A DNA stretch of 24,758 bases, taken from a virus. A program made the position numbers and the translations under genes. Under the pieces are notes generated by a model. That model was not told where the DNA came from and did no database searches. It saw nothing but the letters and a program-made list of their open reading frames with translations. Below are positions 8,980-21,984 of the stretch, piece after piece (position 1 is the first letter of the stretch; the number at the start of each line of letters is the position of its first letter). The DNA is taken from positions 1 to 24,758 of the IMG/VR virus record IMGVR_UViG_3300032285_003852; one strand, 5' to 3'.

Positions 8980-10089
8980 ATGAATAAAAAACTAATAACT
9001 GCGTTAATCGCATTAACACTTGCTGTTTCCCCAGCTGCTAATGCAGCTTTGAAGAATCAAACAGATTCTACACCAACTATTGCAATTCTTGATACAGGGA
9101 TTGATACATCGCTACCAGCTTTTAATGGAAAAATCATTCAAGAAGTATGTATTCTAGAATGGTCTACTTGTCCTAATGGCAAATCATTTATGGAAGGGCC
9201 AGGCGCAGCTTCAATGCCTGCAAACCTCATCAACTTAAATGGATTTGATCATGGAACTCTTATGACATCTGTATTTTTGCAAACAAATCCAAATGCCAAT
9301 GTTGTTTTTATTAAAATTATTGGAAATACATCTACAGGATTGCGACAAAATGCAGGAGAAGCATCAGTGTATAACGCACTTAATTGGGTAAAATCAAACG
9401 CATTGAAATACAATATTCAAGCAGTTAGCATGTCACAAGGACATCACACTCTAGGCGCAGCAGGAACAGACTACTGCCCAAAAACTCCAATTACTGAACA
9501 GGCAGTAAAAGATTTGATGGCTATACAGATACCAGTATTTTTTCCATCTGGAAATGGTCGTGACTACACACGTATTGATTGGCCTGCATGTCTGGACGCA
9601 TCTGTCTCTGTTGGATATGTAGATCAACAAAATGAAATTTCTGCTTCAAGCAACAATGATTCTGAAAAATTAGATTTTTTTGCTCCAGGTTTCTTTTCAG
9701 TTGCTGGCCCAGGAAATGTTTTAAAGAATATTTCAGGTTCATCTGCAGCAATTCAAGTAGCAGCAGGACAGTGGCTAAAATTAAAAACAGCAAAGCCAAC
9801 CTACTCCTATGATCAAATTTTTACTGCAATTAAATCTACAGCATCTAGCACAGTTGGAAGACAAGGTACATTTAATAAGCTAATTAATATTAATGCTGCT
9901 ATTTCTTACACAACACAACAGGCTGGACCAAGCCAACAAGAAATTGCTGCACAGGCAAAAGCAAAATTAAAAGCAGAAGTTGATGCAGCAATTGCAGCAG
10001 CAGAAGCTCAATATCAATTAGAATTAAAGACTGCACAAGACAAGCTTGCTGCAACTAAAGCACAATGGTTGGCAAAACTTAATGGCTGA
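8980..10089 (+). CDS. Secreted subtilisin-like serine peptidase (S8)
   Basis: A 369-residue protein with a signal peptide (hydrophobic 5-20, likely cleavage after AANA, residue 22). The catalytic triad is visible: Asp38 in AILDTGID, His91 in GFDHGTLMTS, Ser255 in SGSSAA; Asn192 in PSGNG supplies the oxyanion hole. Asp38 lies only about 15 residues after the cleavage site, so there is no room for the usual I9 pro-domain. After the catalytic domain (to about 310) comes an Ala/Lys/Gln-rich helical tail ending QWLAKLNG, similar in style to the tail of the 10823-11824 protein. It likely acts outside the cell on surface proteins or a receptor. The stop overlaps the next start. Confidence 0.88.
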   Translation: MNKKLITALIALTLAVSPAANAALKNQTDSTPTIAILDTGIDTSLPAFNGKIIQEVCILEWSTCPNGKSFMEGPGAASMPANLINLNGFDHGTLMTSVFLQTNPNANVVFIKIIGNTSTGLRQNAGEASVYNALNWVKSNALKYNIQAVSMSQGHHTLGAAGTDYCPKTPITEQAVKDLMAIQIPVFFPSGNGRDYTRIDWPACLDASVSVGYVDQQNEISASSNNDSEKLDFFAPGFFSVAGPGNVLKNISGSSAAIQVAAGQWLKLKTAKPTYSYDQIFTAIKSTASSTVGRQGTFNKLININAAISYTTQQAGPSQQEIAAQAKAKLKAEVDAAIAAAEAQYQLELKTAQDKLAATKAQWLAKLNG

Positions 10090-11883: not shown

Positions 11884-12675
11884 TTGAGATTTCATTGGAT
11901 GCTTAGAGGTGAAAATAACTCTATTGAATATTTATCTAAACTTTCAAAACAATTAAATGATTCGGGGTATTATTCAATTCTTTTAGTTTATCATTCCAAA
12001 GAAAATGATTTTTTAACAAAAGCAATAAGAGTTATGTCAGAAAAAGAAAAAATTAAATATATGATTGCCATAAGAACATATGCAATTAGCCCTGAATATT
12101 TATCTATGATTATTAGATCTGCTAATGAGATAGCTAAAGACAAAATAATTTTAAATATTGTGTCAGGAGATATTCATTCTGATGAAACCTCTTTAGAAGA
12201 TATTGTAAATAAAAATGATTTTAATACTAAAGAAAAAAGATTAAAGTATACCGATCAATGGATTAATAAATTTATTAAATTAAGCCCAAGTACAGAACTT
12301 TTTATTGGAGGAAACTCAGATATAACTGAGTCTATAGCAAATAAATATAATATTAATAATATATTAATGATAGATAAGTATCAAAATAAAATTAAAAAAT
12401 CTGAATTTAAAAAAAATAAAAAACAAACTATTTGTTCTATTGTAACAATAAGAGAGACTCAAGATGAAGCAAATGCTTTTTATGAAAATTTTTTACATGA
12501 AACGCAAAAGCAAACTTTTATTTTCGGCACAAAAGATATGTTTAAATCAACTGTAAAGTATTTAGAGGGTTTAGGGGTTACCGATATGCTTATACATTCT
12601 CACGATAGCGATCTTGAATCTTATAGAATTCATGATATAATTAAGGAAATACTGGAGGAACAAAATGGAATCTAG
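11884..12675 (+). CDS. Luciferase-like (LLM class) flavin-dependent protein, copy 1
   Basis: A 263-residue paralogue of the 13866-14642 protein. It begins with a TTG, chosen because TAGGAG lies just upstream and the paralogue starts at the same residue (RFHWM versus KFHWM). The block KYMIAIRTYAISPEYLSMI followed by KIILNIVSGD matches the central strands of the bacterial luciferase / alkanesulfonate monooxygenase (SsuD) fold, and TICSIVTIRETQDEANAFY and FIFGTKDMFKSTV match later ones. It is shorter than SsuD (about 380). It may cleave organosulfonates or act on another substrate with FMNH2 or F420. Overlaps the DUF2061 gene by 11 bases. Confidence 0.65.
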   Translation: MRFHWMLRGENNSIEYLSKLSKQLNDSGYYSILLVYHSKENDFLTKAIRVMSEKEKIKYMIAIRTYAISPEYLSMIIRSANEIAKDKIILNIVSGDIHSDETSLEDIVNKNDFNTKEKRLKYTDQWINKFIKLSPSTELFIGGNSDITESIANKYNINNILMIDKYQNKIKKSEFKKNKKQTICSIVTIRETQDEANAFYENFLHETQKQTFIFGTKDMFKSTVKYLEGLGVTDMLIHSHDSDLESYRIHDIIKEILEEQNGI

Positions 12676-12865
12676 AAAAAAAAGTTTATTTAAAACTATA
12701 ACTTGGCAGATTGTGCATATGGTAATGGTGGCGGGAACCATACTTATCCTCACTGGTGAGTGGGAGATTGCTGGAATTGCAGCAATTGCAGAATTGTTTT
12801 GGGAATCAGCTTTATATTTTGTACATGAAAGAGCGTGGGCAAAATTTGGAAATAAGGTTAAATAA
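12665..12865 (+). CDS. DUF2061 membrane protein, copy 1
   Basis: A 66-residue protein with two hydrophobic helices (about residues 14-30 and 34-52), the family start KSLFKTITWQIVHM and the family end ALYFVHERAW. DUF2061 proteins have no proven role but are often found near sulfate-activation genes such as cysC, which fits the APS-kinase-like gene downstream. Coupled by overlap to the LLM gene upstream and by TAATG to the next ORF. Confidence 0.85.
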   Translation: MESRKKSLFKTITWQIVHMVMVAGTILILTGEWEIAGIAAIAELFWESALYFVHERAWAKFGNKVK

Positions 12866-13008
12866 TGGGAAAACATCACGATAAGATTAAAAAGGCCCTG
12901 GAGCAAAGAATTGCAGCAACTCCAAATGGCTCAGGATATAAAAAGCCTGGCTCTATGAATAAAAAAAAGACAGGATACAGAGGCCAAACTGCAAAAGGCT
13001 CAAAATAA
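12865..13008 (+). CDS. Small basic protein of unknown function
   Basis: A 47-residue Lys/Gly-rich ORF (MGKHHDKIKKALEQRIAATP start, TGYRGQTAKGSK end) whose ATG overlaps the DUF2061 stop (TAATG). Basic and probably disordered; nucleic-acid contact is possible. It has the same style as the 13654-13860 ORF. Confidence 0.55.
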   Translation: MGKHHDKIKKALEQRIAATPNGSGYKKPGSMNKKKTGYRGQTAKGSK

Positions 13009-13011
13009 TAT

Positions 13012-13131
13012 ATGGGGAATGAAGTTTGTGAAGTAAAAGGTTGTCAAAAATCAGCAACTAAAATAACAAGCACTGAGAGTCGATTTATACAGGTATGCTC
13101 TGATTGTTATTATGATAAATACAAATCTTAA
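13012..13131 (+). CDS. Small four-Cys zinc protein
   Basis: A 39-residue ORF with Cys6-x4-Cys11 and Cys29-x2-Cys32, a minimal zinc-finger layout (VCEVKGC ... VCSDC). It starts 3 bases after the preceding stop. The spacing of the Cys pairs makes chance coding unlikely. Confidence 0.6.
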   Translation: MGNEVCEVKGCQKSATKITSTESRFIQVCSDCYYDKYKS

Positions 13132-13140
13132 TCAACTAAA

Positions 13141-13199
13141 TGCTATAATAGAACCATAAGCGGATTACTAGTCCCGCTTAAATAAACAACCTATAGGAG
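13141..13199 (+). promoter_or_regulatory. Extended -10 promoter with a 5'-terminal hairpin and SD
   Basis: TGCTATAAT (13141-13149) predicts a start near 13156. The mRNA would open with the hairpin TAAGCGG (13157-13163) / CCGCTTA (13174-13180), 10-base loop, then AGGAG (13195-13199) seven bases before the ATG at 13207. A 5'-terminal hairpin of this type could protect the mRNA from decay. Confidence 0.6.
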
Positions 13200-13206
13200 T
13201 AACAAA

Positions 13207-13362
13207 ATGACAGATGGAAACAATTTAACAGGTTTTAATGAAACAAAGCCAGCAGGAACTAATGATATTAACGCACACTACTCAGACAATCCAGGAGCAG
13301 CTTTTGCTGCAACAGATAAGTCAACACAAGATAGCGCTGGCGTAAATCAAGGCGGAAAGTAA
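13207..13362 (+). CDS. Small hydrophilic protein of unknown function
   Basis: A 51-residue ORF rich in Asn, Gly, Ala and Thr (MTDGNNLTGFNETKPAGTND start, VNQGGK end), no predicted helix of note and no Cys. Its dedicated promoter, 5' hairpin and good ribosome site suggest strong expression despite the lack of a recognisable fold. Confidence 0.6.
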   Translation: MTDGNNLTGFNETKPAGTNDINAHYSDNPGAAFAATDKSTQDSAGVNQGGK

Positions 13363-13364
13363 CA

Positions 13365-13535
13365 ATGGGTCTTTTTGATAAAGAAGAAGTTACTGCTCCA
13401 ACAATTCAAGCAGCAGTAGCAGAAGCAATTAAGCCAGCTGTAGTTGCTGCGCCAGTTAAACCTGAAGCAGAGTGCACAAGAGATACAAGAGGCGATGCGC
13501 CATGTGCAGTTAAAGATTGTGAGAACTGCAACTAA
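13365..13535 (+). CDS. Small Cys-tailed protein of unknown function
   Basis: A 56-residue ORF, starting 2 bases after the previous stop. An acidic/Ala-rich helix (MGLFDKEEVTAPTIQAAVAE) is followed by a C-terminal cluster of four Cys (residues 37, 47, 52, 55; AECTRDTRGDAPCAVKDC), able to bind one metal ion. Its stop overlaps the next ATG. Confidence 0.6.
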   Translation: MGLFDKEEVTAPTIQAAVAEAIKPAVVAAPVKPEAECTRDTRGDAPCAVKDCENCN

Positions 13536-13654
13536 TGTGTATTGAATGTGGTTGCGGTAGTGATTCAGTTGGATCTGCATCAGGAATGATGTCTATTGAG
13601 ATAGAAGAATCTTCTCAACATGAGATGGCAGAAGGAATGGTAGACCCAGACTAA
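13535..13654 (+). CDS. Tiny CxxCxC protein, copy 1
   Basis: A 39-residue ORF starting MCIECGCGSDS, overlapping the stop before it and the start after it by one base each. The MCxxCGxC start is shared with the ORF at 15685-15774, and the rest is acidic. A possible metal- or Fe-S-binding mini-protein; function unknown. Confidence 0.55.
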   Translation: MCIECGCGSDSVGSASGMMSIEIEESSQHEMAEGMVDPD

Positions 13655-13860
13655 TGTCAGAAGCTTTTAAAAAAGAAGACGGCACTGGCATGACCCCACC
13701 GCCAAACAGCGGTGCGGCTGCTGGAGCTGTTACAAGTAGAGAAACGCCTAAAAAATATCCAAGACAAGGTGTAAAGATAGATACAAATAAACATGGTATT
13801 AGAAGAGAGACAAGCTTAATTCCTAAGCCTGCTAAAAAAACGGGTAGAAAAAAAGTATAA
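13654..13860 (+). CDS. Small basic, probably disordered protein
   Basis: A 68-residue Pro/Gly/Lys-rich ORF with an acidic start and a basic end (KPAKKTGRKKV). No fold is recognised. It ends 5 bases before LLM copy 2 and overlaps the previous ORF by one base, so it belongs to this operon. Nucleic-acid binding is possible from charge alone. Confidence 0.6.
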   Translation: MSEAFKKEDGTGMTPPPNSGAAAGAVTSRETPKKYPRQGVKIDTNKHGIRRETSLIPKPAKKTGRKKV

Positions 13861-13865
13861 GTTAA

Positions 13866-14642
13866 ATGAAGTTTCATTGGATGCAGAAGTATAGTAAAAC
13901 TCCATCTGAATTAAAAAACACTTTAATTAAAATAAATGAAGTCGGATATGAATCCGTGTTGGTTACATTCAATACTGGAATGTCCGATCCTTTTACAAAA
14001 TGTGCAAATGCTTTTATTCCAAATCAAAAAACTAAATTTATGGTTGCAATAAGACCATATGTTTTGACTCCAGCTTACCTTTTGATGATAATAAAAACAT
14101 TTAATCAAATATGTAAAGATTTTCTCATACTGAATATAGTAACTGGAACAAGTGATGAAGAAAATTTAATATTTGGAGAATCAACATCTTTGCAGGAAAG
14201 AAAAATCTATGCTGGTAAATTTGTAGAAAATATGAAGAGTGTAAATAATCAACATAATTTTTGTAATGGTGGGCTGCCTACAATATTTTTTAGTGGTGGT
14301 TCTGATGAAAACATAAATAATGCAGCTGAATACGGTGATGGGTTAATATATTTATTAGAAGATCATTTGACTAATCCAAGCAGATTTGATATTATTAAAG
14401 GAAGAAAGATATTAAAAATATTTTTAATAATATGTGAAACTCAAGATGAAGCAAATTTAATATATAGTAGAGTGGATGGCCCTCAAGTTGGAAGCTCAAT
14501 TTATGGAACAAAAGATTATGTTAAGCAAAAACTTCTTGAATTACAAAATTTTGAAATTTTGCTTTCATCATCAACAATTTATGATTGCGATGACGCCATT
14601 CATAGCCTAATAAAAGAAATAAATAAAAAGATAAATAAATGA
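13866..14642 (+). CDS. Luciferase-like (LLM class) flavin-dependent protein, copy 2
   Basis: A 258-residue paralogue of copy 1. The central block KFMVAIRPYVLTPAYLLMI with FLILNIVTG is close to the SsuD/luciferase-fold pattern FLVALRPG...NVVTG, and the downstream QERKIYAGKFVENM, FSGGSDENINNAAEYGDG and CETQDEANLIY segments fit the same fold. The C-terminal part after about residue 230 is short compared with SsuD. It overlaps the APS-kinase gene (ATGA), which links it to sulfur metabolism. FMNH2 or F420 use cannot be told from sequence. Confidence 0.7.
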   Translation: MKFHWMQKYSKTPSELKNTLIKINEVGYESVLVTFNTGMSDPFTKCANAFIPNQKTKFMVAIRPYVLTPAYLLMIIKTFNQICKDFLILNIVTGTSDEENLIFGESTSLQERKIYAGKFVENMKSVNNQHNFCNGGLPTIFFSGGSDENINNAAEYGDGLIYLLEDHLTNPSRFDIIKGRKILKIFLIICETQDEANLIYSRVDGPQVGSSIYGTKDYVKQKLLELQNFEILLSSSTIYDCDDAIHSLIKEINKKINK

Positions 14643-15400
14643 TTATTCAAATAATTGGACTTCCAGGATCTGGTAAAACAGAACTTGCAAAAGCCCTTAA
14701 AGAAAGAATTAATGCCATCCATCTTAATGCGGATGAAGTTCGTGCTACAGTTAATTCTGACTTAGGCTTTACTCCTGAAGATAGAATTGAGCAAGCAAGA
14801 AGAATGGGCGAAATGGCTCGTCTTATTGCAAAACAAGGAGTGGCTCCAGTTATAGTTGATTTTGTTTGTCCAATAGAACTAACTCGTACAGCATTTGGCA
14901 AGCCAGATATTCTAGTATTTATGGATACAATTGCAGAAGGTCGCTTTGAAGACACAAATAAAATTTTTGAGCGGCCAACAGGCTTTGATGTATCTTTTAT
15001 TAGCCATAATTTAAATGCAGAAGAAAAAGCATCTCATATTATTAAAAAATTTGGTCTACACGACTGGTCTGCACCCACAACACTAATGCTTGGTCGCTAC
15101 CAGCCTTGGCACGAAGGCCACCACGCTCTTTACAAAGAGGCGGGTAACAGAACAGACCAAGTGCTACTTGGAGTTCGTAATACATACAATACAAGCGAAA
15201 AAGATCCTCTTAAGTTTGATCAAGTAAAAGAATATATTGCTAAAGATGAGTTTATGGATGGTGCAATGGTTTTGCGTCTTCCAAACATAACTAATATTGT
15301 TTATGGTCGTGATGTAGGTTATAAAATTGAACAAGTAAAGTTAGGAGATGAAATTGAAGCTATTTCAGCAACTGAAAAACGTAAGCAAATGGGTATTTAA
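14639..15400 (+). CDS. APS-kinase-like / nucleotidyltransferase fusion
   Basis: A 253-residue two-domain protein. Residues 1-135 resemble adenylylsulfate kinase (CysC): P-loop GLPGSGKT at 7-14, HLNADEVR at 28-35, LGFTPEDR at 42-49, and a FERPTGFDVSFISH lid region. Residues about 145-253 form an HIGH-type nucleotidyltransferase: GRYQPWHEGH at 152-161 and ISATEKRK at 242-249, the two signatures of the NMNAT / cytidylyltransferase / ATP-sulfurylase fold. The kinase makes PAPS from APS; the second domain could make APS (a compact PAPS synthetase) or another nucleotide product. Its end overlaps DUF2061 copy 2. Domain calls are firm, the second substrate is not. Confidence 0.78.
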   Translation: MIIQIIGLPGSGKTELAKALKERINAIHLNADEVRATVNSDLGFTPEDRIEQARRMGEMARLIAKQGVAPVIVDFVCPIELTRTAFGKPDILVFMDTIAEGRFEDTNKIFERPTGFDVSFISHNLNAEEKASHIIKKFGLHDWSAPTTLMLGRYQPWHEGHHALYKEAGNRTDQVLLGVRNTYNTSEKDPLKFDQVKEYIAKDEFMDGAMVLRLPNITNIVYGRDVGYKIEQVKLGDEIEAISATEKRKQMGI

Positions 15401-15683
15401 TCAATTTGAAAAATCTGGTAAAGCAATTAGCGATGCAGAAGAAAGATTATATTTTGATGATACACCTCATGAACCAATTAAATGGGTATCTCATGGCAGA
15501 TCGTTAGCAAAAGCAGTAAGTTGGAGATTTTTTGGCAACCTAATTTCTTTCATTATTATTTATGGATTAACCCATGATGGCAAGCTGGCCCTTGCTGCAT
15601 CTGGAATTGAGCTTATAGTTAAAATTGTTCTTTATTATTATCATGAACGTGCCTGGAATAAAATTAAATGGGGAAGAGAATAA
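15354..15683 (+). CDS. DUF2061 membrane protein, copy 2
   Basis: About 109 residues. TTG 15354 is preferred because AGGAG (15343-15347) lies six bases upstream; ATG 15348 is possible but touches the AGGAG. The gene overlaps the APS-kinase fusion by 47 bases. Residues 1-45 are a hydrophilic extension absent from copy 1, then the DUF2061 unit: HGRSLAKAVSWRFFGNLI, two hydrophobic helices and VLYYYHERAWNKI. The deep overlap with a cysC-like gene argues that the two proteins act together. Confidence 0.83.
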   Translation: MKLFQQLKNVSKWVFNQFEKSGKAISDAEERLYFDDTPHEPIKWVSHGRSLAKAVSWRFFGNLISFIIIYGLTHDGKLALAASGIELIVKIVLYYYHERAWNKIKWGRE

Positions 15684-15684
15684 A

Positions 15685-15774
15685 ATGTGTTTCAACTGCG
15701 GAAATTGCTCAAAAGAACATCAAAGTAATATTGATGATGCAATGGATGCAGTTTTAGATTCTTCTGTATTATGA
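15685..15774 (+). CDS. Tiny CxxCxxC protein, copy 2
   Basis: A 29-residue ORF, MCFNCGNCSKEHQSN at the start, followed by an acidic helix. It sits after DUF2061 copy 2 as copy 1 (13535-13654) sits after DUF2061 copy 1. Overlaps the next gene by ATGA. Very short, so held with caution. Confidence 0.5.
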   Translation: MCFNCGNCSKEHQSNIDDAMDAVLDSSVL

Positions 15775-15989
15775 AAAAAAGAAAACTATTAAATAATGTA
15801 TATTCATTTCTTCCTAGAATGTATCAGGGTTCAGAGGTAAGAGAATTAGATGCACCTATAGATTTGATTATACATACAAAAGCTCCAGGCAAGTGGTTGC
15901 TAATAGATTTAGAAACAGGTCAGGAATATATAGGCCTAGATCAACCAGATCAGTACGGTGTTTGGAAAAGAATAAAAGAAAAAGATTAA
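15771..15989 (+). CDS. Small phage protein of unknown function
   Basis: A 72-residue basic protein; the C-terminal half (GKWLLIDLETGQEYIGLDQP and YGVWKRIKEK) looks like a small beta-sheet domain seen in phage hypotheticals. The last motif WKRIKEK also ends the WhiB-like protein. Its 3' end overlaps the convergent sulfotransferase gene by 4 bases. Confidence 0.6.
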   Translation: MKKRKLLNNVYSFLPRMYQGSEVRELDAPIDLIIHTKAPGKWLLIDLETGQEYIGLDQPDQYGVWKRIKEKD

Positions 15990-16639
15990 TCTAAGATGGG
16001 AGTCCAAAATATTTTTTTGGCTTCTTCGTATAATTCAAAATCCATATAGTTAATTTTTTTTATTTTATTGATATCGGATTTAGATAAAGAATTATATATA
16101 TCTTTTACTCCCTCTGTTCTAAACTCATCTGTATCCTTTATTCCGTCATCAAAAGGTAATGAATTTATATTAAGGTCTAAACAAATTTTTTCTCTTAAAG
16201 ATTTAATAGTTTTAATGTTTATATCTTTTGAATCAATTAAAAGATTTACTCTTTTTAATCTATTTAATATTAAATCTTTATCAAAATTTATATCTGAATG
16301 AGGGTCAACTTTATTTTCTTTCCATGTAATAAAACTTCTTGCTTGCAAATTTTCAATTGAGTTAATTCTTTCAATCAAATCACTTTTTGTTTTAACATTT
16401 GAAAAAGCAACGTGATAGCTTATAAGACATTCTAGGGGATCACGAAGCAGGCAAATTATGTATGAAGAATCTTCAATCTCAGAGCTCCAACCCCAATGGG
16501 TCCAATCATCTGGATCTGCATTAGGTCTAATTAATTTAATATTTTCATCTTTAGACCAACGAACTATGTGTCTAAATACATATTTATGAAAAAATCTTCC
16601 AGCTGTTCTATTCACATGTAAGAAATAAACTGATTTCAT
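15986..16639 (-). CDS. Sulfotransferase-like protein
   Basis: A 217-residue protein. FLHVNRTAGRFFHKYVF (residues 6-22) matches the 5'-phosphosulfate-binding loop pattern of sulfotransferases (FIHIPKTGGTS), although the Lys is replaced by Arg11. LLRDPLECLISYHV (64-77) matches the 3'-phosphate-binding motif RDPxxRxxSxY with Arg66 and Ser74. The rest is Lys/Ile-rich helix. Such enzymes move sulfate from PAPS to sugars, lipids or proteins; the adjacent APS-kinase fusion could supply PAPS. It is convergent with that operon and has its own leaderless-type promoter. GC is very low (long A/T runs). The acceptor is unknown. Confidence 0.68.
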   Translation of the reverse strand: MKSVYFLHVNRTAGRFFHKYVFRHIVRWSKDENIKLIRPNADPDDWTHWGWSSEIEDSSYIICLLRDPLECLISYHVAFSNVKTKSDLIERINSIENLQARSFITWKENKVDPHSDINFDKDLILNRLKRVNLLIDSKDINIKTIKSLREKICLDLNINSLPFDDGIKDTDEFRTEGVKDIYNSLSKSDINKIKKINYMDFELYEEAKKIFWTPILD

Positions 16640-16702: not shown

Positions 16703-16852
16703 ATGCTTAAAATGTTATTAAAAATAATAAAGTGTAAAGCTGTTGGGCACACGCTTGTAGAAGCTGGAAGCTGTCCATTTACAGGTCTTTCCTACAATTA
16801 TTGCGAAAGATGTGAATTAATGTTGCCAAAGGAAGGTCAATATGTCGAATAA
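16703..16852 (+). CDS. DUF1660-like zinc protein
   Basis: A 49-residue protein with Cys11, His16, Cys24, Cys34 and Cys37 in the pattern KCKAVGH...GSCPFTGLSY..CERC, which I recognise as similar to DUF1660 phage/prophage proteins. It is likely zinc-binding; role unknown. It is leaderless by prediction and overlaps the first 2OG oxygenase gene by 11 bases, providing the GGAAGG ribosome site for it. Confidence 0.7.
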   Translation: MLKMLLKIIKCKAVGHTLVEAGSCPFTGLSYNYCERCELMLPKEGQYVE

Positions 16853-17423
16853 ACTAGTTAAAAGAGAAAACGGAATTTGGCAATGGAATTCTGTATTTAA
16901 TAATCCAAGTGAGCTTTTGTCAAATGTTTTATCAAAAAATTGGAAGCCATACAATAATGACGGCGGAGGAAGTACATTAATAGGAAGATCAACAATTGTA
17001 TATGATAATGAAGAAGTATACGATCAAATATTAAATGTATTTTTAAAATGTTTAGAAGAGTATATTGATGAAAACAATTTAGATATAACCACAGGTAACT
17101 TGGGAATTGGTTGGTGGCTAGTAAGAGATTACGCAGCTGGATCAGTAATGACAGCTCATGAAGATGCTTATAGTTATGTTAAAGATGGAGAACATGAAGT
17201 TAAGCCTAAACTAACAATGCTTCTTTATATAAATGAAGATTATGAAGGTGGAGAAATTTCTTTTCCAAATGAAAATGTAATGATAAAGCCACAGGCTGGC
17301 TCAGTTGTAATTTTTCCAAGTAATTTATCTCATGAGGTTAAAACAGTAATTTCAGGAAATAGATATATGACTCAAACTTATATTTATGAGAAACATTTTT
17401 CTCATTATCAAACAAAATTTTAG
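16842..17423 (+). CDS. Fe(II)/2-oxoglutarate oxygenase, P4H-like (copy A)
   Basis: A 193-residue prolyl-4-hydroxylase-like protein with an intact iron site: His106-x-Asp108 in TAHEDAYS and His164 in NLSHEVK; Arg174 in SGNRY would bind 2-oxoglutarate. DYEGGEISFP and KPQAGSVVIFPS are the family's core strands. Such enzymes hydroxylate protein, nucleic-acid or small-molecule substrates. A GGAAGG ribosome site lies inside the preceding gene. First of five related genes up to 20848. Confidence 0.85.
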   Translation: MSNKLVKRENGIWQWNSVFNNPSELLSNVLSKNWKPYNNDGGGSTLIGRSTIVYDNEEVYDQILNVFLKCLEEYIDENNLDITTGNLGIGWWLVRDYAAGSVMTAHEDAYSYVKDGEHEVKPKLTMLLYINEDYEGGEISFPNENVMIKPQAGSVVIFPSNLSHEVKTVISGNRYMTQTYIYEKHFSHYQTKF

Positions 17424-17431
17424 GGATATAA

Positions 17432-17698
17432 ATGATCTATAATATTGTAGAAAAATATTTAATGCGCCCGAAACGACTTAGAGAAGCAATTCAAGCGGTA
17501 GTTAGAGAAAATGATGAGTTGTTACGCAGACTTGCAGCATATAAAGAAGAAATGCCAACTAATCTTACATGGGCAGAAGGCAATAGATGGTACGGTTGGA
17601 CTTACAATTCAATAAAAAAACGCTACTATTTTGATGATATTGGCAATGAATCTCTCATGGGCTTATGGGAAGATCAATGGAAAAGAGAAGAGGATTAA
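17432..17698 (+). CDS. Coiled-coil / Trp-Tyr-rich phage protein
   Basis: An 88-residue protein: N-terminal helix with coiled-coil character (REAIQAVVRENDELLRRLAA), then an aromatic C-terminal domain (NRWYGWTYNSIKKRYYFDDI). No family is recognised. It sits 8 bases after copy A and 1 base before the CDGSH gene, so it is part of the operon. Confidence 0.6.
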   Translation: MIYNIVEKYLMRPKRLREAIQAVVRENDELLRRLAAYKEEMPTNLTWAEGNRWYGWTYNSIKKRYYFDDIGNESLMGLWEDQWKREED

Positions 17699-17699
17699 A

Positions 17700-17843
17700 A
17701 TGGGTGTATGTAAGTGCGGACTATCAGCACAATATCCAGAATGCGACGGTACACATAAGGCAGTTATAAATAATGAGATTTTAAGACAATCAATTATTGA
17801 AGCGTATAAAAAATGGGAAACAGACAATTCTAATATAGTATAA
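17700..17843 (+). CDS. CDGSH-type iron-sulfur mini-protein
   Basis: A 47-residue protein with a complete CDGSH motif: Cys4-x-Cys6-x2-Ser-x3-Pro-x-Cys15-Asp-Gly-Thr-His19 (CKCGLSAQYPECDGTH). In mitoNEET-family proteins this set of three Cys and one His holds a redox-active [2Fe-2S] cluster. The rest is one helix (LRQSIIEAYKKWE). ATG 17700 is used because it directly precedes the motif and has AGAGGA upstream. A possible role is electron or Fe-S transfer to the neighbouring iron enzymes; that is inference. No membrane anchor. Confidence 0.85.
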   Translation: MGVCKCGLSAQYPECDGTHKAVINNEILRQSIIEAYKKWETDNSNIV

Positions 17844-17844
17844 T
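17839..17844 (+). promoter_or_regulatory. -10 box, near-leaderless promoter
   Basis: TATAAT overlaps the CDGSH stop and ends 8 bases before the ATG at 17853, giving a leader of about 2 bases. Confidence 0.5.
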
Positions 17845-17852
17845 AGAACTAT

Positions 17853-18017
17853 ATGGGTAATCCTAAGTACACTAATGAGTCCTGGTTGAGGGATCAATAT
17901 GTGACACAAGAGATAGAGATTGTCGATATAGCGGCATCTTGCAAGGTAGATAAATCGGTCATAATAAGATGGCTAGATGAATATGGGATATATAGAAACT
18001 GGAAGAGGTTCGGATGA
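17853..18017 (+). CDS. Solo helix-turn-helix protein
   Basis: A 54-residue ORF. The core (WLRDQYVTQEIEIVDIAASC, then KVDKSVIIRWLDEYGIYR) matches the small HTH found at the end of phage HNH and homing endonucleases and in solo phage HTH proteins (IA..C.V....I..WL...GI). It may bind DNA and control the operon it begins. Stop overlaps the next ATG (ATGA). Confidence 0.72.
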   Translation: MGNPKYTNESWLRDQYVTQEIEIVDIAASCKVDKSVIIRWLDEYGIYRNWKRFG

Positions 18018-18676
18018 TAGAGGCAATAAAGCTTGCTGAAAAAGTATGGTATTTTAAAAATGCTATAGAAAATCCAAAAGAGATTTTTGAATCATTGGAT
18101 TCTTGGATGCCAGTTGCTAATCAGGACTATATGGAAACATCAATTGTTTCAACAAAATCTTATCTAGAAGATAGCGATAATGCAATATTTAAATGTTTAG
18201 ACATTTGGTACAATGCAAACCAACATTTAAATCCTGATAGCTATAAGCTAATGCCAAAAACACATTTTTACAAAAGAGGTGCAGGTGGTGGATACAGCCC
18301 TCATACAGACTTTGCAGCGATGCCAGACGGCACATATGAGGAAGTAACTGCAACTATATTGGGATATTTTGCAGATCCTGCCGACTTTGGTGATGGAGAA
18401 ATAACCTTTCCAGATTACGACATAGTCTTAAAACCAGAAATTGGCAGTATAGTTATTTTTGGTAATAAGGTAAGACATGGAGTAAACGATGTTGCATTTG
18501 GACAAAGAGGGCTTGGAAGCACATTTCTTGTAAAAAATAATATATTTTATAAGAGCATAATGGTTGATCCAAAAAATATTTCAAAGCAAGAAGAATTACA
18601 TATTAGGGAAGAATTTCCTCAATATGAATCTAAAAATGGTAATATAGATTTATCAAAACAAATAGGAGAAGAATAA
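18014..18676 (+). CDS. Fe(II)/2-oxoglutarate oxygenase, P4H-like (copy B)
   Basis: A 220-residue protein with an intact site: His97-x-Asp99 in YSPHTDFAAM, His155 in KVRHGVN, Arg165 in GQRGLG as the likely 2-oxoglutarate ligand; strands FGDGEITFP and KPEIGSIVIFG. It has a longer C-terminal tail (PKNISKQEELHIREEFPQYE) than its neighbours. GGAAGAGG lies upstream. Coupled to the HTH gene before and the GPx gene after (one-base overlap at 18676). Confidence 0.83.
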   Translation: MIEAIKLAEKVWYFKNAIENPKEIFESLDSWMPVANQDYMETSIVSTKSYLEDSDNAIFKCLDIWYNANQHLNPDSYKLMPKTHFYKRGAGGGYSPHTDFAAMPDGTYEEVTATILGYFADPADFGDGEITFPDYDIVLKPEIGSIVIFGNKVRHGVNDVAFGQRGLGSTFLVKNNIFYKSIMVDPKNISKQEELHIREEFPQYESKNGNIDLSKQIGEE

Positions 18677-19191
18677 TGTCAGTATATGATTATGAAGTAA
18701 GATTAAGCAATGGCGCATTGTTGCCACTTTCAGATTTTAGAGATAAAGTTCTGCTTTTAGTAAATACAGCAAGCAAATGTGGATTTACTAAGCAGTATGA
18801 AGGCCTACAAGAACTTCACAAGAAGTATGCTGATCGTGGTCTTGTTGTAATTGCATTTCCTTCAAATCAATTTGGTGGACAAGAGCCTGGATCTGATGCA
18901 GAAATTCAAGAATTTTGCAAAACAAATTACAACGTAACATTTACTGTAGCGGCTAAAGTTGGAGTAAAGGGAGAAGATGCAGACCCACTATTTTCATATA
19001 TCATGTCTGTAGTTGGACACGAAGTTCCTTGGAATTTTACCAAATTTATCGTTGATAATGATGAGATCACAGTAAACTCTCCAGATACTGAACCAACCGA
19101 TATGGATGCTTTAATTGATCACTTGCTATTAAAAAAAGCAAGTGCTGTAGATAGCTTGAATGCAGAATCAATTACTGATGAGCAGCTTTAA
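18676..19191 (+). CDS. Glutathione-peroxidase-family thiol peroxidase
   Basis: A 171-residue GPx with Cys35 (NTASKCGFTKQY) in place of selenocysteine, Gln69 in FPSNQFGGQEPG and Trp119-Asn120 in PWNFTKF, which complete the catalytic tetrad. FCKTNYNVTFTVAAKV carries a second Cys (81) where thioredoxin-dependent members have the resolving Cys, so the thioredoxin at 10291-10596 could be its reductant. It would reduce peroxides, possibly protecting the oxygenases or host during infection. The last 15 residues form an acidic tail. AGGAGAAGA precedes the start. Confidence 0.93.
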   Translation: MSVYDYEVRLSNGALLPLSDFRDKVLLLVNTASKCGFTKQYEGLQELHKKYADRGLVVIAFPSNQFGGQEPGSDAEIQEFCKTNYNVTFTVAAKVGVKGEDADPLFSYIMSVVGHEVPWNFTKFIVDNDEITVNSPDTEPTDMDALIDHLLLKKASAVDSLNAESITDEQL

Positions 19192-19741
19192 TCCAGTTCA
19201 AATTATAGGCGATTTTGGAGCTTATATACAAAATTGCGCTACCAAAGAATCTATGGAAGAAATGCTGCAAACCATTCAAACATTTGAATCCATGCCGCTA
19301 AGATTTGGTACAAGATATACCGTTCATAGTTTCAGAACTTCACATGCTCCATTTTTTAAGGGAATACGTGAAATAATGACAGAAGGAATTAAAATATTTT
19401 TAGAAAAAACTGATAGATCTATAGATGATTATAAGCCATCAAATGATTATTATGCTGTTGTAAAATGGAATCAAGAGAGAATGGGTCGTCATCAGCAAAG
19501 CGTTGATACTAAAAATGAAGTTTTAATAATTCCAGAAGTAAGTTCTTATTTGTTTATGACAGACGATTATGAGGGTGGAGAGTTTAACTTTACAGATTTA
19601 AATATAAGCATCAAGCCAAAAGCTGGTGATATGATTGTATTTAACTCAAATGCTTTTATAAGTATCAACCCAATGAAAGATGGCGGAAGAAAAATTGAAG
19701 TTAATATGCCCATGTATTTAGCATCAAAAGATATAGATTAG
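19178..19741 (+). CDS. Degenerate 2OG-oxygenase-fold protein (copy C)
   Basis: A 187-residue paralogue of the 20294-20848 protein (FGAYIQNC...MPLRFGTRY versus FGIFIENC...IDMRFGTYK). The fold strands remain (DDYEGGEFNF, KPKAGDMIVFNS) but the iron site is broken: HxD is His105-Gln-Gln107, and the distal His position reads AFISIN (Ile161). Arg171 is retained. It is therefore unlikely to be a normal Fe/2OG enzyme and may be a regulatory or binding pseudoenzyme. Start ATG 19178 overlaps the GPx end by 14 bases; the frame is intact and the gene sits within the operon, so it is not simple decay. Confidence 0.75.
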   Translation: MSSFNPVQIIGDFGAYIQNCATKESMEEMLQTIQTFESMPLRFGTRYTVHSFRTSHAPFFKGIREIMTEGIKIFLEKTDRSIDDYKPSNDYYAVVKWNQERMGRHQQSVDTKNEVLIIPEVSSYLFMTDDYEGGEFNFTDLNISIKPKAGDMIVFNSNAFISINPMKDGGRKIEVNMPMYLASKDID

Positions 19742-19748
19742 ATACATT

Positions 19749-20294
19749 ATGGCACAACCAAATGTAGTAAAAGATTTTATTTCAAAAGAAACAGCAAAGT
19801 ATTTAAATGATTACTTAAGGCCTAAATCATATTTAAATCCAAGAGGTCTTTTGAATGTTTATCTTAAACCATTAGACATATCAAAAAATGGCGCAGTAGA
19901 AGATCACGTTGTTCATGACTTAATTAATATGATAGAAAACTCCATATCTGCTCAGTTTGGATTTAAAAAATCAGAGATCTTTTTAGATAGAATGAACTAT
20001 CAGGTTTTGCAAAAAGGTGAAGAGCTGGGATGGCATGCAGATGCATATGGCGGTGTTGATGGATATGAAGACAACTATTATTCTGCCCTATTGTATTTAA
20101 CTGATAATTATGAAGGTGGAGAAATTCATTTTTATGAAAACAATTCTGGTGATAAAGCAGACAGCACTGCGTATAAACCACAGGCTGGCACACTTATATT
20201 CTTTAAGGGTGACAGAGATTATCCGCACTCAGTAAATGAAGTTATTGATGGAGAAAGATCTAACATAATACTATTCTATGGAGTCAAAAAGTAG
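19749..20294 (+). CDS. Fe(II)/2-oxoglutarate oxygenase, P4H-like (copy D)
   Basis: A 181-residue protein with intact His96-x-Asp98 (LGWHADAYGG), distal His160 (DYPHSVNEV) and Arg170 (DGERSNIILFYG). It has the full prolyl-4-hydroxylase core, with SALLYLTDNYEGGEIHF and YKPQAGTLIFFKG. This is the most canonical member of the block. The N-terminal VVKDFISKETAKYLNDYL is a typical P4H lead helix. It follows copy C by 7 bases and its stop shares a base with the next start. Confidence 0.87.
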   Translation: MAQPNVVKDFISKETAKYLNDYLRPKSYLNPRGLLNVYLKPLDISKNGAVEDHVVHDLINMIENSISAQFGFKKSEIFLDRMNYQVLQKGEELGWHADAYGGVDGYEDNYYSALLYLTDNYEGGEIHFYENNSGDKADSTAYKPQAGTLIFFKGDRDYPHSVNEVIDGERSNIILFYGVKK

Positions 20295-20848
20295 TGGAGC
20301 TACTTCTAAAAGATTTTGGTATTTTTATTGAAAATTGTGTAGATAAAGAATCAATAGAATCATTCTTAAAATCAATTTCTAGTTTAGAAGATATAGATAT
20401 GAGATTTGGAACATACAAAAGATTAGATATTAATGATAAAACAGTTATAGATAAATATAATTATATAGAGTCTATTATAATCGAAACTGCAAAAAATAAC
20501 TTAAGCAAAATTGGTAAAAATATAGAAGATTATGAAAAATGTAATAACATATATAAAATAAAAACTTGGGGTTTAGATCAAGAAATTGGTTTTCATAAAG
20601 ATAGTGTGGGGGTAGAGGTCACACAAATAAAAAGCCCAGCAATTAGTATTGTTTTTTATTTAACTGAAGATTTTGAAGGTGGAGAAATAATCTTTCCTAA
20701 TAAAGATAATGAGTATTCAGATGAAGACATAATCATAAAGCCAAAAGCTGGAAGCATTATTATATTTCATTCAGATATAACTCATAGAGTAAATAAGCTT
20801 ATAAGCGGCAGAAGAATAGCAACAGATTTATTTTTATCTAAAAAATAA
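20294..20848 (+). CDS. Fe(II)/2-oxoglutarate oxygenase, P4H-like (copy E)
   Basis: A 184-residue protein starting with GTG, one base overlapping the previous stop. Iron ligands His101-x-Asp103 (GFHKDSVG) and His164 (DITHRVN) are intact, with Arg173/174 (SGRRIATDL). FEGGEIIFP and KPKAGSIIIFHS are family strands. It is the closest relative of the degenerate copy C, so one of the pair lost its metal site after duplication. Its stop abuts the minus-strand gene with no spacer and no terminator. Confidence 0.83.
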   Translation: MELLLKDFGIFIENCVDKESIESFLKSISSLEDIDMRFGTYKRLDINDKTVIDKYNYIESIIIETAKNNLSKIGKNIEDYEKCNNIYKIKTWGLDQEIGFHKDSVGVEVTQIKSPAISIVFYLTEDFEGGEIIFPNKDNEYSDEDIIIKPKAGSIIIFHSDITHRVNKLISGRRIATDLFLSKK

Positions 20849-21409
20849 TTATTCCCACAATGGTCCAGCATCAAATATAATAGAGTACTTTTCTGAGAGG
20901 TTTTGTGTTCTATGCCAAGTACCAGCTCTAAGCCATAGAAGATCACCTGGCTCAAGCATGATTGTCTCTGGCTCTTTTCTCCAAGCTGTTTGCCATTCCC
21001 AACCTTGTCGTTCTTGATATTTAAATTCTTTTGGCACACCAGTCATCTCACCATAAAGCCCAACTTGCCATTCTGTAACACCTTTGCAGTGCCAATGAAG
21101 TATGTCGTAAGGGTCTTTGTGAAGCGGCTCTCCTGGCCATACAGAGTCTAAATTTCTGTATCTTTTGCCTTCAAATATGTAGTATTGATATTCAATATCT
21201 GGGTATGCTTTTTTTGACTCATCTAAAAAGTATTGCATAGGTTCAGGAAGCGGAACATCCTGAATAAACTTACGAACACCAGTGCTTGCTGGATCAATTA
21301 TTTCCTCAAACTCTTTCCAGGTTGGTACGGGGTGGTGCCAATTGCGTAATACTGCATAGGGAAGATTATCCCTTTTTGCATTACTAACAAACTCAGCCAA
21401 TGTTGTCAT
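20849..21409 (-). CDS. JmjC/cupin-like Fe-dependent oxygenase-family protein
   Basis: A 186-residue protein. His97-x-Asp99 (PLHKDPYDILHWHCKG) and His166 (AGTWHRTQN) fit a JmjC-type iron site; MLEPGDLLWL is the strand before the distal His. It is a paralogue of the next gene and, more distantly, of 847-1428. It overlaps that gene by ATGA. GGGGAT precedes its ATG. Its base composition is visibly less AT-rich than the plus-strand oxygenases, hinting at a separate origin. Substrate unknown. Confidence 0.72.
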   Translation of the reverse strand: MTTLAEFVSNAKRDNLPYAVLRNWHHPVPTWKEFEEIIDPASTGVRKFIQDVPLPEPMQYFLDESKKAYPDIEYQYYIFEGKRYRNLDSVWPGEPLHKDPYDILHWHCKGVTEWQVGLYGEMTGVPKEFKYQERQGWEWQTAWRKEPETIMLEPGDLLWLRAGTWHRTQNLSEKYSIIFDAGPLWE

Positions 21410-21984
21410 TTTTTATCCCCGTCCTTGTATATTTTGCCAGCCTGCATGATCACTGAGTATTTATCGCAAATATTTTCTGTTTCATGCCATGACATATTAT
21501 CAAACCAAAGAACATCGCCAGGCTCTAAGATAAATGTATCGTAAGGTCCAGTCCAATGAGCATCCCAATCAAAGTATGTTCCAACATCTGGTTTGGCCTT
21601 TCTATAATCATTCTTTGCTTCTGCATGAATACCAACATTCCATTTGGTAACCCCAGTACAGTGCCAATGAATTACATCAAACATGTCGTGATGAAGCTTA
21701 GATCCAGGCTTGTTATAGTAAAAGTTTCTATAATAAATATTGGAGAAAATATAAAAATCATTATCTGATTCAGGATAAGCCTTATTTGCCTCATCAATAA
21801 AATATTGTATCTTTGAATTAACTTCTCTATTTTCTAGCTGGAGGCGTCTAAACCACTCGTCTTCTGGACCGTACATGGCGTCTATTTCTTTTCTGGTAGG
21901 AGTAGGTTGATGCCAGTTTTTAAATACGGCATAATGTTTTCCTTCAGATTTAGCTTCTTTAATTAGATCAGATAATGTAGTCAT
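21406..21984 (-). CDS. JmjC/cupin-like Fe-dependent oxygenase-family protein
   Basis: A 192-residue protein that begins MTTLSDLIKEAKSEGKHYAV, close to its downstream paralogue. His98/His99-x-Asp100 in KLHHDMFDVIHWHCTG and His167 in NMSWHETEN give an iron-binding set; ILEPGDVLWF is the preceding strand. It starts from a near-leaderless promoter and is first in a two-gene minus-strand operon that runs against the P4H block. Role unknown; a cupin without oxygenase activity is the alternative. Confidence 0.72.
   Translation of the reverse strand: MTTLSDLIKEAKSEGKHYAVFKNWHQPTPTRKEIDAMYGPEDEWFRRLQLENREVNSKIQYFIDEANKAYPESDNDFYIFSNIYYRNFYYNKPGSKLHHDMFDVIHWHCTGVTKWNVGIHAEAKNDYRKAKPDVGTYFDWDAHWTGPYDTFILEPGDVLWFDNMSWHETENICDKYSVIMQAGKIYKDGDKK

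Follow-up and report, generated by a model that had tools for sequence, protein, structure and literature searches.

A phage fusion of an APS-kinase-like domain and a NadM-like nucleotidyltransferase is a candidate compact PAPS synthetase

PAPS is the sulfate donor of the cell. In a lake virus of bacteria we found a 253 amino acid fusion protein (14639-15400) that combines an APS-kinase-like domain with a small nucleotidyltransferase (NT) domain. We propose, at a probability of roughly 0.58, that this protein represents a compact PAPS synthetase whose NT domain is an unrecognised ATP sulfurylase. The NT would join sulfate to AMP from ATP to yield APS and PPi, and the APS-kinase domain would phosphorylate the 3'-OH of APS to yield PAPS. 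We know of no ATP-sulfurylase activity within the nucleotidyltransferase family to which the NT belongs.

The fusion lies within positions 11884-16639 of the window, the whole analysed stretch of 24,758 nucleotides, among the following features:

11884-12675, plus strand: LLM flavoprotein 1; TTG start, paralogue of LLM flavoprotein 2, TIGR03565 match of 3e-10 over residues 11-96
12665-12865, plus strand: DUF2061 membrane protein a, the more divergent type; PF09834 match of 1.7e-13
13866-14642, plus strand: LLM flavoprotein 2; Bac_luciferase match of 5e-8, profile match to SsuD of 9e-18
14639-15067, plus strand: APS-kinase-like domain of the fusion, residues 1-143; Pfam APS_kinase match of 1.3e-15, AlphaFold model
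15068-15400, plus strand: NadM-like HxGH nucleotidyltransferase domain (NT), residues 144-253 and stop codon; profile match to MJ0541 of 1.5e-12
15348-15683, plus strand: DUF2061 membrane protein b; PF09834 match of 4.2e-16
15771-15989, plus strand: small ORF; phrog_4098 match of 3.7e-8, 85% identical in loci L001 and L080
15986-16639, minus strand: sulfotransferase of the heparan-sulfate 2-O/6-O-sulfotransferase type; phrog_3347 match of 8e-5, AlphaFold fold match

Results

Sequence and predicted fold place the kinase domain in the APS-kinase family

The kinase domain scored 58.2 bits against Pfam APS_kinase (PF01583; cut-off 21.1), and its profile matched PAPSS1 in the PDB at 6e-23. Using the AlphaFold model of the fusion (pLDDT 91), APS kinases were retrieved with Z scores of about 18, and the next-best family, gluconate kinase, reached a Z of about 15. 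The domain carries the P-loop GLPGSGKT (14657-14680) as well as the APS-binding-type motifs DxxR, LGF and EDR/RR, and D32, R35, F44, R49 and R55 were invariant among 30 sequences. As the earlier note on this DNA had assumed, the domain is thus, by sequence and modelled fold, a member of the APS-kinase family and not of another P-loop family. The canonical lid (KGLYKKAR...GFTG) is absent from the phage kinase, the lid being shortened, and the score against NCBIfam apsK (59.5 bits) remains below the cut-off of 138.7. The haloarchaeal fusion possesses the canonical lid and passes the apsK cut-off, which makes its kinase domain a complete APS kinase.

An APS-kinase domain joined to an HxGH-type nucleotidyltransferase is also the architecture of PAPS synthetases, namely animal PAPSS1/2 and bacterial SAT/APS-kinase fusions (e.g. 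Aquifex 2gks), whose kinase fold the phage domain matches with a Z of about 17-18. In contrast to these enzymes, the second domain of the phage protein measures about 110 amino acids and is NadM-like, whereas the Sat domain is much larger. The phage fusion further differs by the shortened kinase lid and by having no Sat sequence match (no hit to the Sat catalytic domain PF01747 at E values up to 0.1).

The NT domain is a modified NadM-like core

The NT domain, which the first reading had missed, is the most interesting part of the fusion. Its motifs GRYQPWHEGH (15092-15121), GRDVGY (15305-15322) and SAT..R (15365-15382) are invariant or nearly so among the relatives aligned. The NT profile is closest to archaeal NMN adenylyltransferase (NMNAT; NadM of MJ0541), followed by phosphopantetheine adenylyltransferase, and the phage domain shares GRxQPxHxGH, NPF and SxTxxR with MJ0541. 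Unlike NadM, it has lost most of the NMN-site segment (about residues 76-110 of MJ0541, for which only about ten NT counterparts exist), has gained GRxVGY and two extra conserved arginines, R180 (codon at 15176-15178) and R224, and occurs either joined to or alongside an APS-kinase-like protein; in SAR86 the kinase and the NT are split. Against the NadM family model it reached 25 bits (cut-off 127). On these sequence grounds the NT is an HxGH nucleotidyltransferase core with SxTxxR, NadM-like but not a complete NadM. No sequence match of the NT to Sat or CysDN was found; the latter pairs an ATP-pyrophosphatase-type subunit with a GTPase in a heterodimer and is unrelated to the NT in sequence. 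Fold comparison was performed with the whole fusion, and the resulting list was filled by matches to the kinase domain.

Cellular relatives are found next to sulfotransferase genes and in genomes without a known ATP sulfurylase

Genes for kinase-NT proteins lie beside sulfotransferase genes on three haloarchaeal plasmids as well as in a haloarchaeal (L136), a Rhodospirillaceae (L097) and a SAR11 locus (L122), and the same applies to a kinase-only relative from SAR11 (L165). A Microvirga nod cluster combines kinase-NT with a sulfotransferase, cysD and cysN::DUF2061, and clusters of CysDN/NodPQ with the sulfotransferase NodH contain relatives of both the fusion and DUF2061. In genomes scanned with Sulfotransfer_3, three sulfotransferase neighbours of kinase-NT were seen when 0.23 were expected (P=0.0017). 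Six marine alphaproteobacterial loci carry cysQ about 12 bp upstream of kinase-NT. Because relatives of the fusion accompany sulfate-transferring genes in archaea, rhizobia and ocean bacteria, they probably represent an unrecognised route to PAPS.

We analysed which ATP sulfurylases the carriers encode. Sat and a clear CysD were each present in one of 26 cellular genomes with kinase or kinase-NT, and Sulfotransfer_3 was present in 21. Most marine carriers tested have neither of the known ATP sulfurylases, yet possess sulfotransferases. Among 148 Pelagibacterales genomes, 116 encode the NT and six encode CysD, all six being devoid of the NT (p=7e-5, not corrected for phylogeny). Sat was found in seven of these genomes, five with and two without the NT, a distribution that is uninformative. 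NT and sulfotransferases were not associated within the 148 genomes (p=0.64), and about 18 genomes carry a sulfotransferase but lack both NT and CysD.

These data bear on two other explanations. First, the kinase might be an APS kinase supplied with APS by host CysDN, while the NT is no sulfurylase and binds or adenylylates another molecule or acts as a regulator. The fusion indeed co-occurs with CysD in Microvirga and in Rhodospirillaceae G001, whose genome encodes an intact NT as well as CysD/CysH-like proteins; Rhizobium, Methylosinus and SAR11 (L165) have relatives that consist of the kinase alone, and the NT resembles NMNAT rather than Sat. However, the NT of marine carriers retains its invariant catalytic motifs, which were lost only in the Microvirga copy, adjacent to CysDN. 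Moreover, since most marine carriers encode neither Sat nor CysD, a supply by CysDN leaves APS without a known source, and we consider this explanation unlikely.

Second, the pair might produce a different 3'-phosphoadenylyl compound or cofactor, with the NT adenylylating some molecule that is not sulfate before the CysC-like kinase phosphorylates the product, in analogy to CoA synthesis or to CysC-like kinases with other nucleotide-linked substrates. The similarity of the NT to NMNAT and phosphopantetheine adenylyltransferase is in line with this idea. So are the SAR11 neighbourhoods of kinase-NT, which are mostly devoted to organosulfur and methylamine catabolism and not to sulfation, many copies lying among enoyl-CoA hydratase, DddP-like, demethylase-like and methanethiol-oxidase-like genes. 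The location of kinase-NT in DNA-metabolism or lysis regions of isolated phages would fit as well. Nevertheless, sulfotransferase, CysQ and CysDN neighbours in several lineages, the complete APS kinase of the haloarchaeal form, and an NT acceptor site that is shortened and has acquired arginines all speak for sulfate, and we regard another cofactor as improbable.

DUF2061 is the constant partner in viral loci

The kinase-NT gene (14639-15400) followed by a DUF2061 gene forms the constant unit, which was found in 85 of 92 non-redundant viral loci; DUF2061 lies 3' of the kinase in 78/80 and 55/73 viral loci. In the window, the two reading frames overlap by 53 nt. Both DUF2061 proteins exceed the PF09834 cut-off of 23.1 bits (51.2 and 59.5 bits). 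Fusions of DUF2061 to CysN or CysN-CysC in alphaproteobacteria and its location inside nod sulfation clusters support a link of the family to sulfate activation. DUF2061 may therefore be viewed as a small membrane protein that assists sulfate activation, perhaps serving as an anchor or sulfate conduit. Within 1.5 kb downstream of the SAR11 or SAR86 NT, no DUF2061 gene was found. Many alphaproteobacterial copies stand alone with no obvious sulfur neighbours, and in Caulobacter and Shewanella DUF2061 responds to iron (PMC3751524, PMC12442407), so that membership of the family does not by itself mark sulfation.

The sulfotransferase and the LLM flavoproteins are occasional neighbours

The earlier note had read 11884-16639 as a single phage sulfur module. 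Its account of the gene content was accurate, as all six genes are intact ORFs with family matches, and they are packed together. The unity of the module did not withstand comparison: window-type sulfotransferases lie near the kinase-NT gene in only 5 of the 92 viral loci, an LLM gene is found no farther than 3 kb from the kinase in 13, and three loci have both. The six genes do not form one conserved module, as the kinase-DUF2061 pair is accompanied only occasionally by LLM or sulfotransferase genes. The sulfotransferase is encoded on the opposite strand and therefore belongs to a separate transcript from the kinase-fusion genes. A search of isolated phages yielded no sulfotransferase. A recognisable sulfotransferase was present in 12 of 20 kinase-NT phage records and none was seen in the other eight, counting kinase-NT records only. 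A motif search of the viral flanks detected no PP-loop (PAPS-reductase-like) proteins.

The window sulfotransferase (217 amino acids) matched Pfam with an E value of 0.0026 and 18.4 bits, below the cut-off of 22. Its AlphaFold model (pLDDT 87) matched HS2ST with a Z of 11.7 (rmsd 4.4, 197 residues) and HS6ST with a Z of 11.5, and the top matches were all sulfotransferases. According to this model, the protein has a PAPS-sulfotransferase fold. At the level of family and fold, neither of the two refutations named beforehand, a kinase of another P-loop family or a sulfotransferase without a PAPS pocket, came about. The phage enzyme resembles heparan-sulfate 2-O/6-O-sulfotransferases and phrog_3347 (galactose-3-O-sulfotransferase) with Z scores of 11.4-11.7 over about 195 residues and a conserved RDP...S motif, a candidate PAPS-binding site, but shows 16-20% identity and has an unusual 5' loop ([RK][TSAC]xGRF). 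PAPS made by the fusion would feed sulfotransferases of this kind, which would probably sulfate a cell-surface or phage glycan to the benefit of the phage. Phages that lack a recognised sulfotransferase would have another PAPS user.

Both LLM flavoproteins share N-terminal and central sequence with the alkanesulfonate monooxygenase SsuD. They matched SsuD/SfnG models (NCBIfam TIGR03565) at 3e-10 and 7e-12, and the profile match of both proteins plus phage relatives to solved SsuD makes the remote homology clear. Their scores of 39.7 and 45 bits, confined to the N-terminal part, are far below the curated score of 518, and with about 260 amino acids they are about 120 shorter than SsuD (about 380). 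Isolated phages gave weak LLM matches only, to alkanesulfonate monooxygenases, and a back-translated peptide search for relatives yielded 17 pattern matches, zero of which were confirmed. The role in freeing sulfur that had been assigned to the LLM proteins was not borne out: the genes are sporadic, much of SsuD is missing and no substrate evidence was found. A single module in which the LLM proteins release sulfonate sulfur, the kinase produces PAPS and the sulfotransferase consumes it would agree with the SsuD profile match (9e-18), with the 4-nt overlap (ATGA) of LLM2 and the kinase fusion, with an upstream LLM gene whose end is at most 30 bp from the kinase in 3/92 loci and with a weak LLM-sulfotransferase association across viral loci (p=0.019), but is very improbable given the rarity and shortness of the LLM proteins, their absence among the neighbours examined in cellular kinase-NT loci, and the fact that SsuD gives sulfite, not sulfate, with no sulfite-oxidising enzyme among the genes scanned. 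Both LLM genes are probably unrelated neighbours outside the pathway.

Discussion

The established ATP sulfurylases are of two kinds, Sat and CysDN (PMC4220642, PMC3779200). We found no description of the kinase-NT enzyme in SAR11 or phages in the open-access literature. Beyond the phage fusion itself, we give even odds to the wider proposal that the NT is a third kind of ATP sulfurylase which arose from a NadM-type adenylyltransferase. Under this proposal, the NT and an APS-kinase-like partner, joined in one chain or encoded separately, would make up a compact PAPS synthetase that serves haloarchaea, most SAR11 bacteria and many phages of fresh water, and in phages and rhizobia DUF2061 would be the membrane component. 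If this holds true, sulfate activation would have been overlooked in most sampled SAR11 (116/148) and likewise in SAR86, haloarchaea and hundreds of phage contigs. It would explain the source of PAPS for sulfotransferases that otherwise have no known one. Phages would bring their own PAPS supply, and the DUF2061 family would gain a pathway.

A conserved viral pair within the 4.8-kb region

We re-examined the 4.8 kb that the earlier note had read as a single sulfur-activation pathway, in which LLM proteins free sulfur, a kinase makes PAPS and a sulfotransferase uses it. Each of its six genes proved to be an intact open reading frame:

11884-12675, + strand, LLM1
12665-12865, + strand, DUF2061a
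13866-14642, + strand, LLM2
14639-15400, + strand, fusion of an APS-kinase-like domain and an HxGH nucleotidyltransferase (NT) domain
15348-15683, + strand, DUF2061b
15986-16639, - strand (opposite to the others), sulfotransferase

LLM2 and the kinase gene overlap by ATGA, and the DUF2061b frame as listed shares 53 nt with the kinase gene. Many relatives instead have a short ORF of its own overlapping the kinase end, followed by the DUF2061 gene; in the window this ORF and DUF2061 are fused. Both DUF2061 proteins score above the family cut-off. As the window (24,758 bases, an IMG/VR virus record) encodes WhiB, a marker for assigning freshwater phages to Actinobacteria (PMC6802176), its virus is likely an actinophage; several of its relatives are contigs of 114-118 kb. 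Elsewhere the window carries a run of genes, about eight in number, that look 2OG-Fe(II)-oxygenase- or JmjC-like (847-1428 and 16842-21984; four tested by Pfam, the others by eye), with a glutathione peroxidase among them (18676-19191). A subtilase (S8; 8980-10089) and an 881-aa protein with a PA14 domain and long stretches rich in Ala, Lys and Glu (2402-5047) both have relatives in other kinase-carrying phages.

DUF2061 lies downstream of the kinase in 78 of 80 viral loci retrieved with the kinase protein (85-93% identity) and in 55 of 73 loci of a second, more divergent and partly overlapping set. Neighbours were counted in 92 non-redundant viral loci whose flanks extend 3 kb or more on either side of the kinase. 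Within 3 kb, DUF2061 was found in 85, an LLM gene in 13, a sulfotransferase of the window type in five and the latter two together in three. The conserved viral unit is therefore the kinase fusion plus DUF2061, and the 4.8 kb does not hold together as one pathway. Among 20 kinase-NT phages, the only phages covered by this count, 12 encode a recognisable sulfotransferase anywhere in the record, several of them by weak matches.

LLM1 and LLM2 are SsuD-related paralogues of about 260 aa, yet they are remote from SsuD and about 120 residues shorter. Their genes are sporadic around the viral kinase, and the cellular neighbourhoods examined contained none. Sulfite, the product of SsuD, would have to be oxidised ahead of activation, and no sulfite-oxidising enzyme was identified among the scanned genes. 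These observations speak against the LLM proteins as the sulfur source; most likely they are unrelated auxiliary genes.

The fusion combines an APS-kinase-like domain with an overlooked nucleotidyltransferase domain

The earlier note assigned the kinase and the sulfotransferase correctly, and its suspicion of PAPS chemistry was justified. Residues 1-143 of the fusion match APS kinase (Pfam 1.3e-15; kinase-domain profile against the human PAPSS1 domain 6e-23), and in the model (pLDDT 91) the top structural matches are APS kinases (Z 16-18), with gluconate kinase next at 15. D32, R35, F44, R49 and R55 are invariant; they are part of the DxxR, LGF and EDR/RR motifs with which APS kinases bind APS. 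The lid, including its KGLYKKAR...GFTG stretch, is absent from phage, SAR11 and rhizobial members and present in haloarchaeal ones, and a haloarchaeal fusion kinase exceeds the curated apsK cut-off. The sulfotransferase has a weak Pfam match below the cut-off (0.0026), but its model (pLDDT 87) has the fold of heparan-sulfate 2-O-/6-O-sulfotransferases (Z 11.4-11.7 across some 195 residues); all structural matches listed are sulfotransferases. It keeps the RDP...S motif, and its 5' loop is unusual.

The C-terminal 110 residues of the fusion, which the earlier note did not describe, form an HxGH nucleotidyltransferase whose profile matches the archaeal NMN adenylyltransferase MJ0541 (1.5e-12). 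The GRxQPxHxGH and S.T..R motifs of MJ0541 are retained. Its residues ~76-110, which hold much of the NMN site, have only about ten NT counterparts, with a new GRxVGY motif. R180, at the position of a glycine-serine in MJ0541, is invariant and R224 nearly so. Because known ATP sulfurylases bind sulfate via arginines and use an HxGH/HxxH motif, the NT residues appear compatible with a small oxyanion acceptor. The motif has been described for human ATP sulfurylase (PMC3779200). By sequence NT belongs to neither known ATP-sulfurylase family, Sat or CysDN, and the claim is therefore one of functional likeness.

Some cellular relatives lie beside sulfation genes

On haloarchaeal plasmids, full-length fusions directly follow a sulfotransferase gene or are one small gene away. 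Microvirga lotononidis has the order nodC-like, nodI-like, nodJ-like (by eye), sulfotransferase, fusion, cysD, cysN, and its cysN product ends in a DUF2061 domain. In Mesorhizobium, DUF2061 sits between the nod-cluster sulfotransferase and cysD/cysN, and other alphaproteobacteria encode CysN-CysC-DUF2061 and CysN-DUF2061 fusions. The extracted loci with C-terminal DUF2061 fusions are:

L314:1-1701, fused to CysN-CysC
L086:11172-12761, fused to CysN (Microvirga)
L318, L319 and L313, further loci of this kind

This nod-cluster placement and these fusions tie one DUF2061 type to sulfate activation; many other copies stand alone, and the family is iron-responsive in two species.

Marine bacteria, SAR11 and SAR86 among them, usually encode kinase and NT in two genes that adjoin or overlap, although a few kb occasionally lie between them; in two SAR11 loci (L127:8995-14480, L109:8989-12121) one or two large genes with ~760-aa products separate them. 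A sulfotransferase gene overlaps the NT gene in SAR11 locus L122 and the kinase gene in L165 (8977-10489). The L165 kinase lacks NT and the pair adjoins surface-sugar-synthesis-like genes (by eye), which suggests that some SAR11 bacteria sulfate a surface glycan. A Rhodospirillaceae and a haloarchaeal genome each have their only Sulfotransfer_3 match 1-3 kb from the fusion. Three such sulfotransferase neighbours were seen against 0.23 expected by random placement (P=0.0017). A true CysQ gene, whose product clears the PAP remaining from sulfation, ends about 12 bp upstream of the kinase in six alphaproteobacterial loci that are probably closely related.

SAR11 NT genes (L106, L126, L133, L164 and others), together with the kinase or close to it, often lie amid enoyl-CoA hydratase, DddP-like, GcvT/demethylase-like, glycine-betaine-oxygenase-like and methanethiol-oxidase-like genes, an organosulfur/methylamine setting that the PAPS reading leaves unexplained.

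NT and the known sulfurylases

Among 26 cellular genomes that carry the kinase(-NT), Sulfotransfer_3 matches occur in 21, Sat in one and clear CysD/CysH-like proteins in one; one haloarchaeon has an unassigned PF01507 protein. NT is present in 116 of 148 Pelagibacterales genomes, sampled solely for at least 80% completeness, and all six with CysD fall among the 32 lacking NT (p=7e-5, kinship ignored). Functional replacement predicts such exclusion, which two or three gains could also explain. Sulfotransferase presence was not associated with NT presence in these genomes (p=0.64), about 18 of which, at this completeness, have a sulfotransferase with neither NT nor CysD. In a Microvirga fusion (L086:8992-9774) the kinase motifs are intact and the NT motifs lost (GLDLGY, VSPTAVQ) beside intact cysDN, as expected for a redundant sulfurylase. 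A Rhodospirillaceae genome with intact NT and CysD/CysH-like genes is a counter-example.

The best-supported reading, to which we give a probability of just under 0.6, is that the fusion would act as a compact PAPS synthetase, its NT being an ATP-sulfurylase domain that has so far gone unrecognised. The open-access literature searched describes no such enzyme; a Lake Baikal virome paper gives viral cysC and nadM as separate items (PMC8066274), each of which may be one half of a gene of this type. NT, overlooked before, is the most interesting part of the region. SAR86 CP097973.1, titled a complete genome, has the kinase, NT and two sulfotransferases, and its scan returned neither Sat nor PF01507 matches; such cells would be without a known PAPS route unless NT provides APS.
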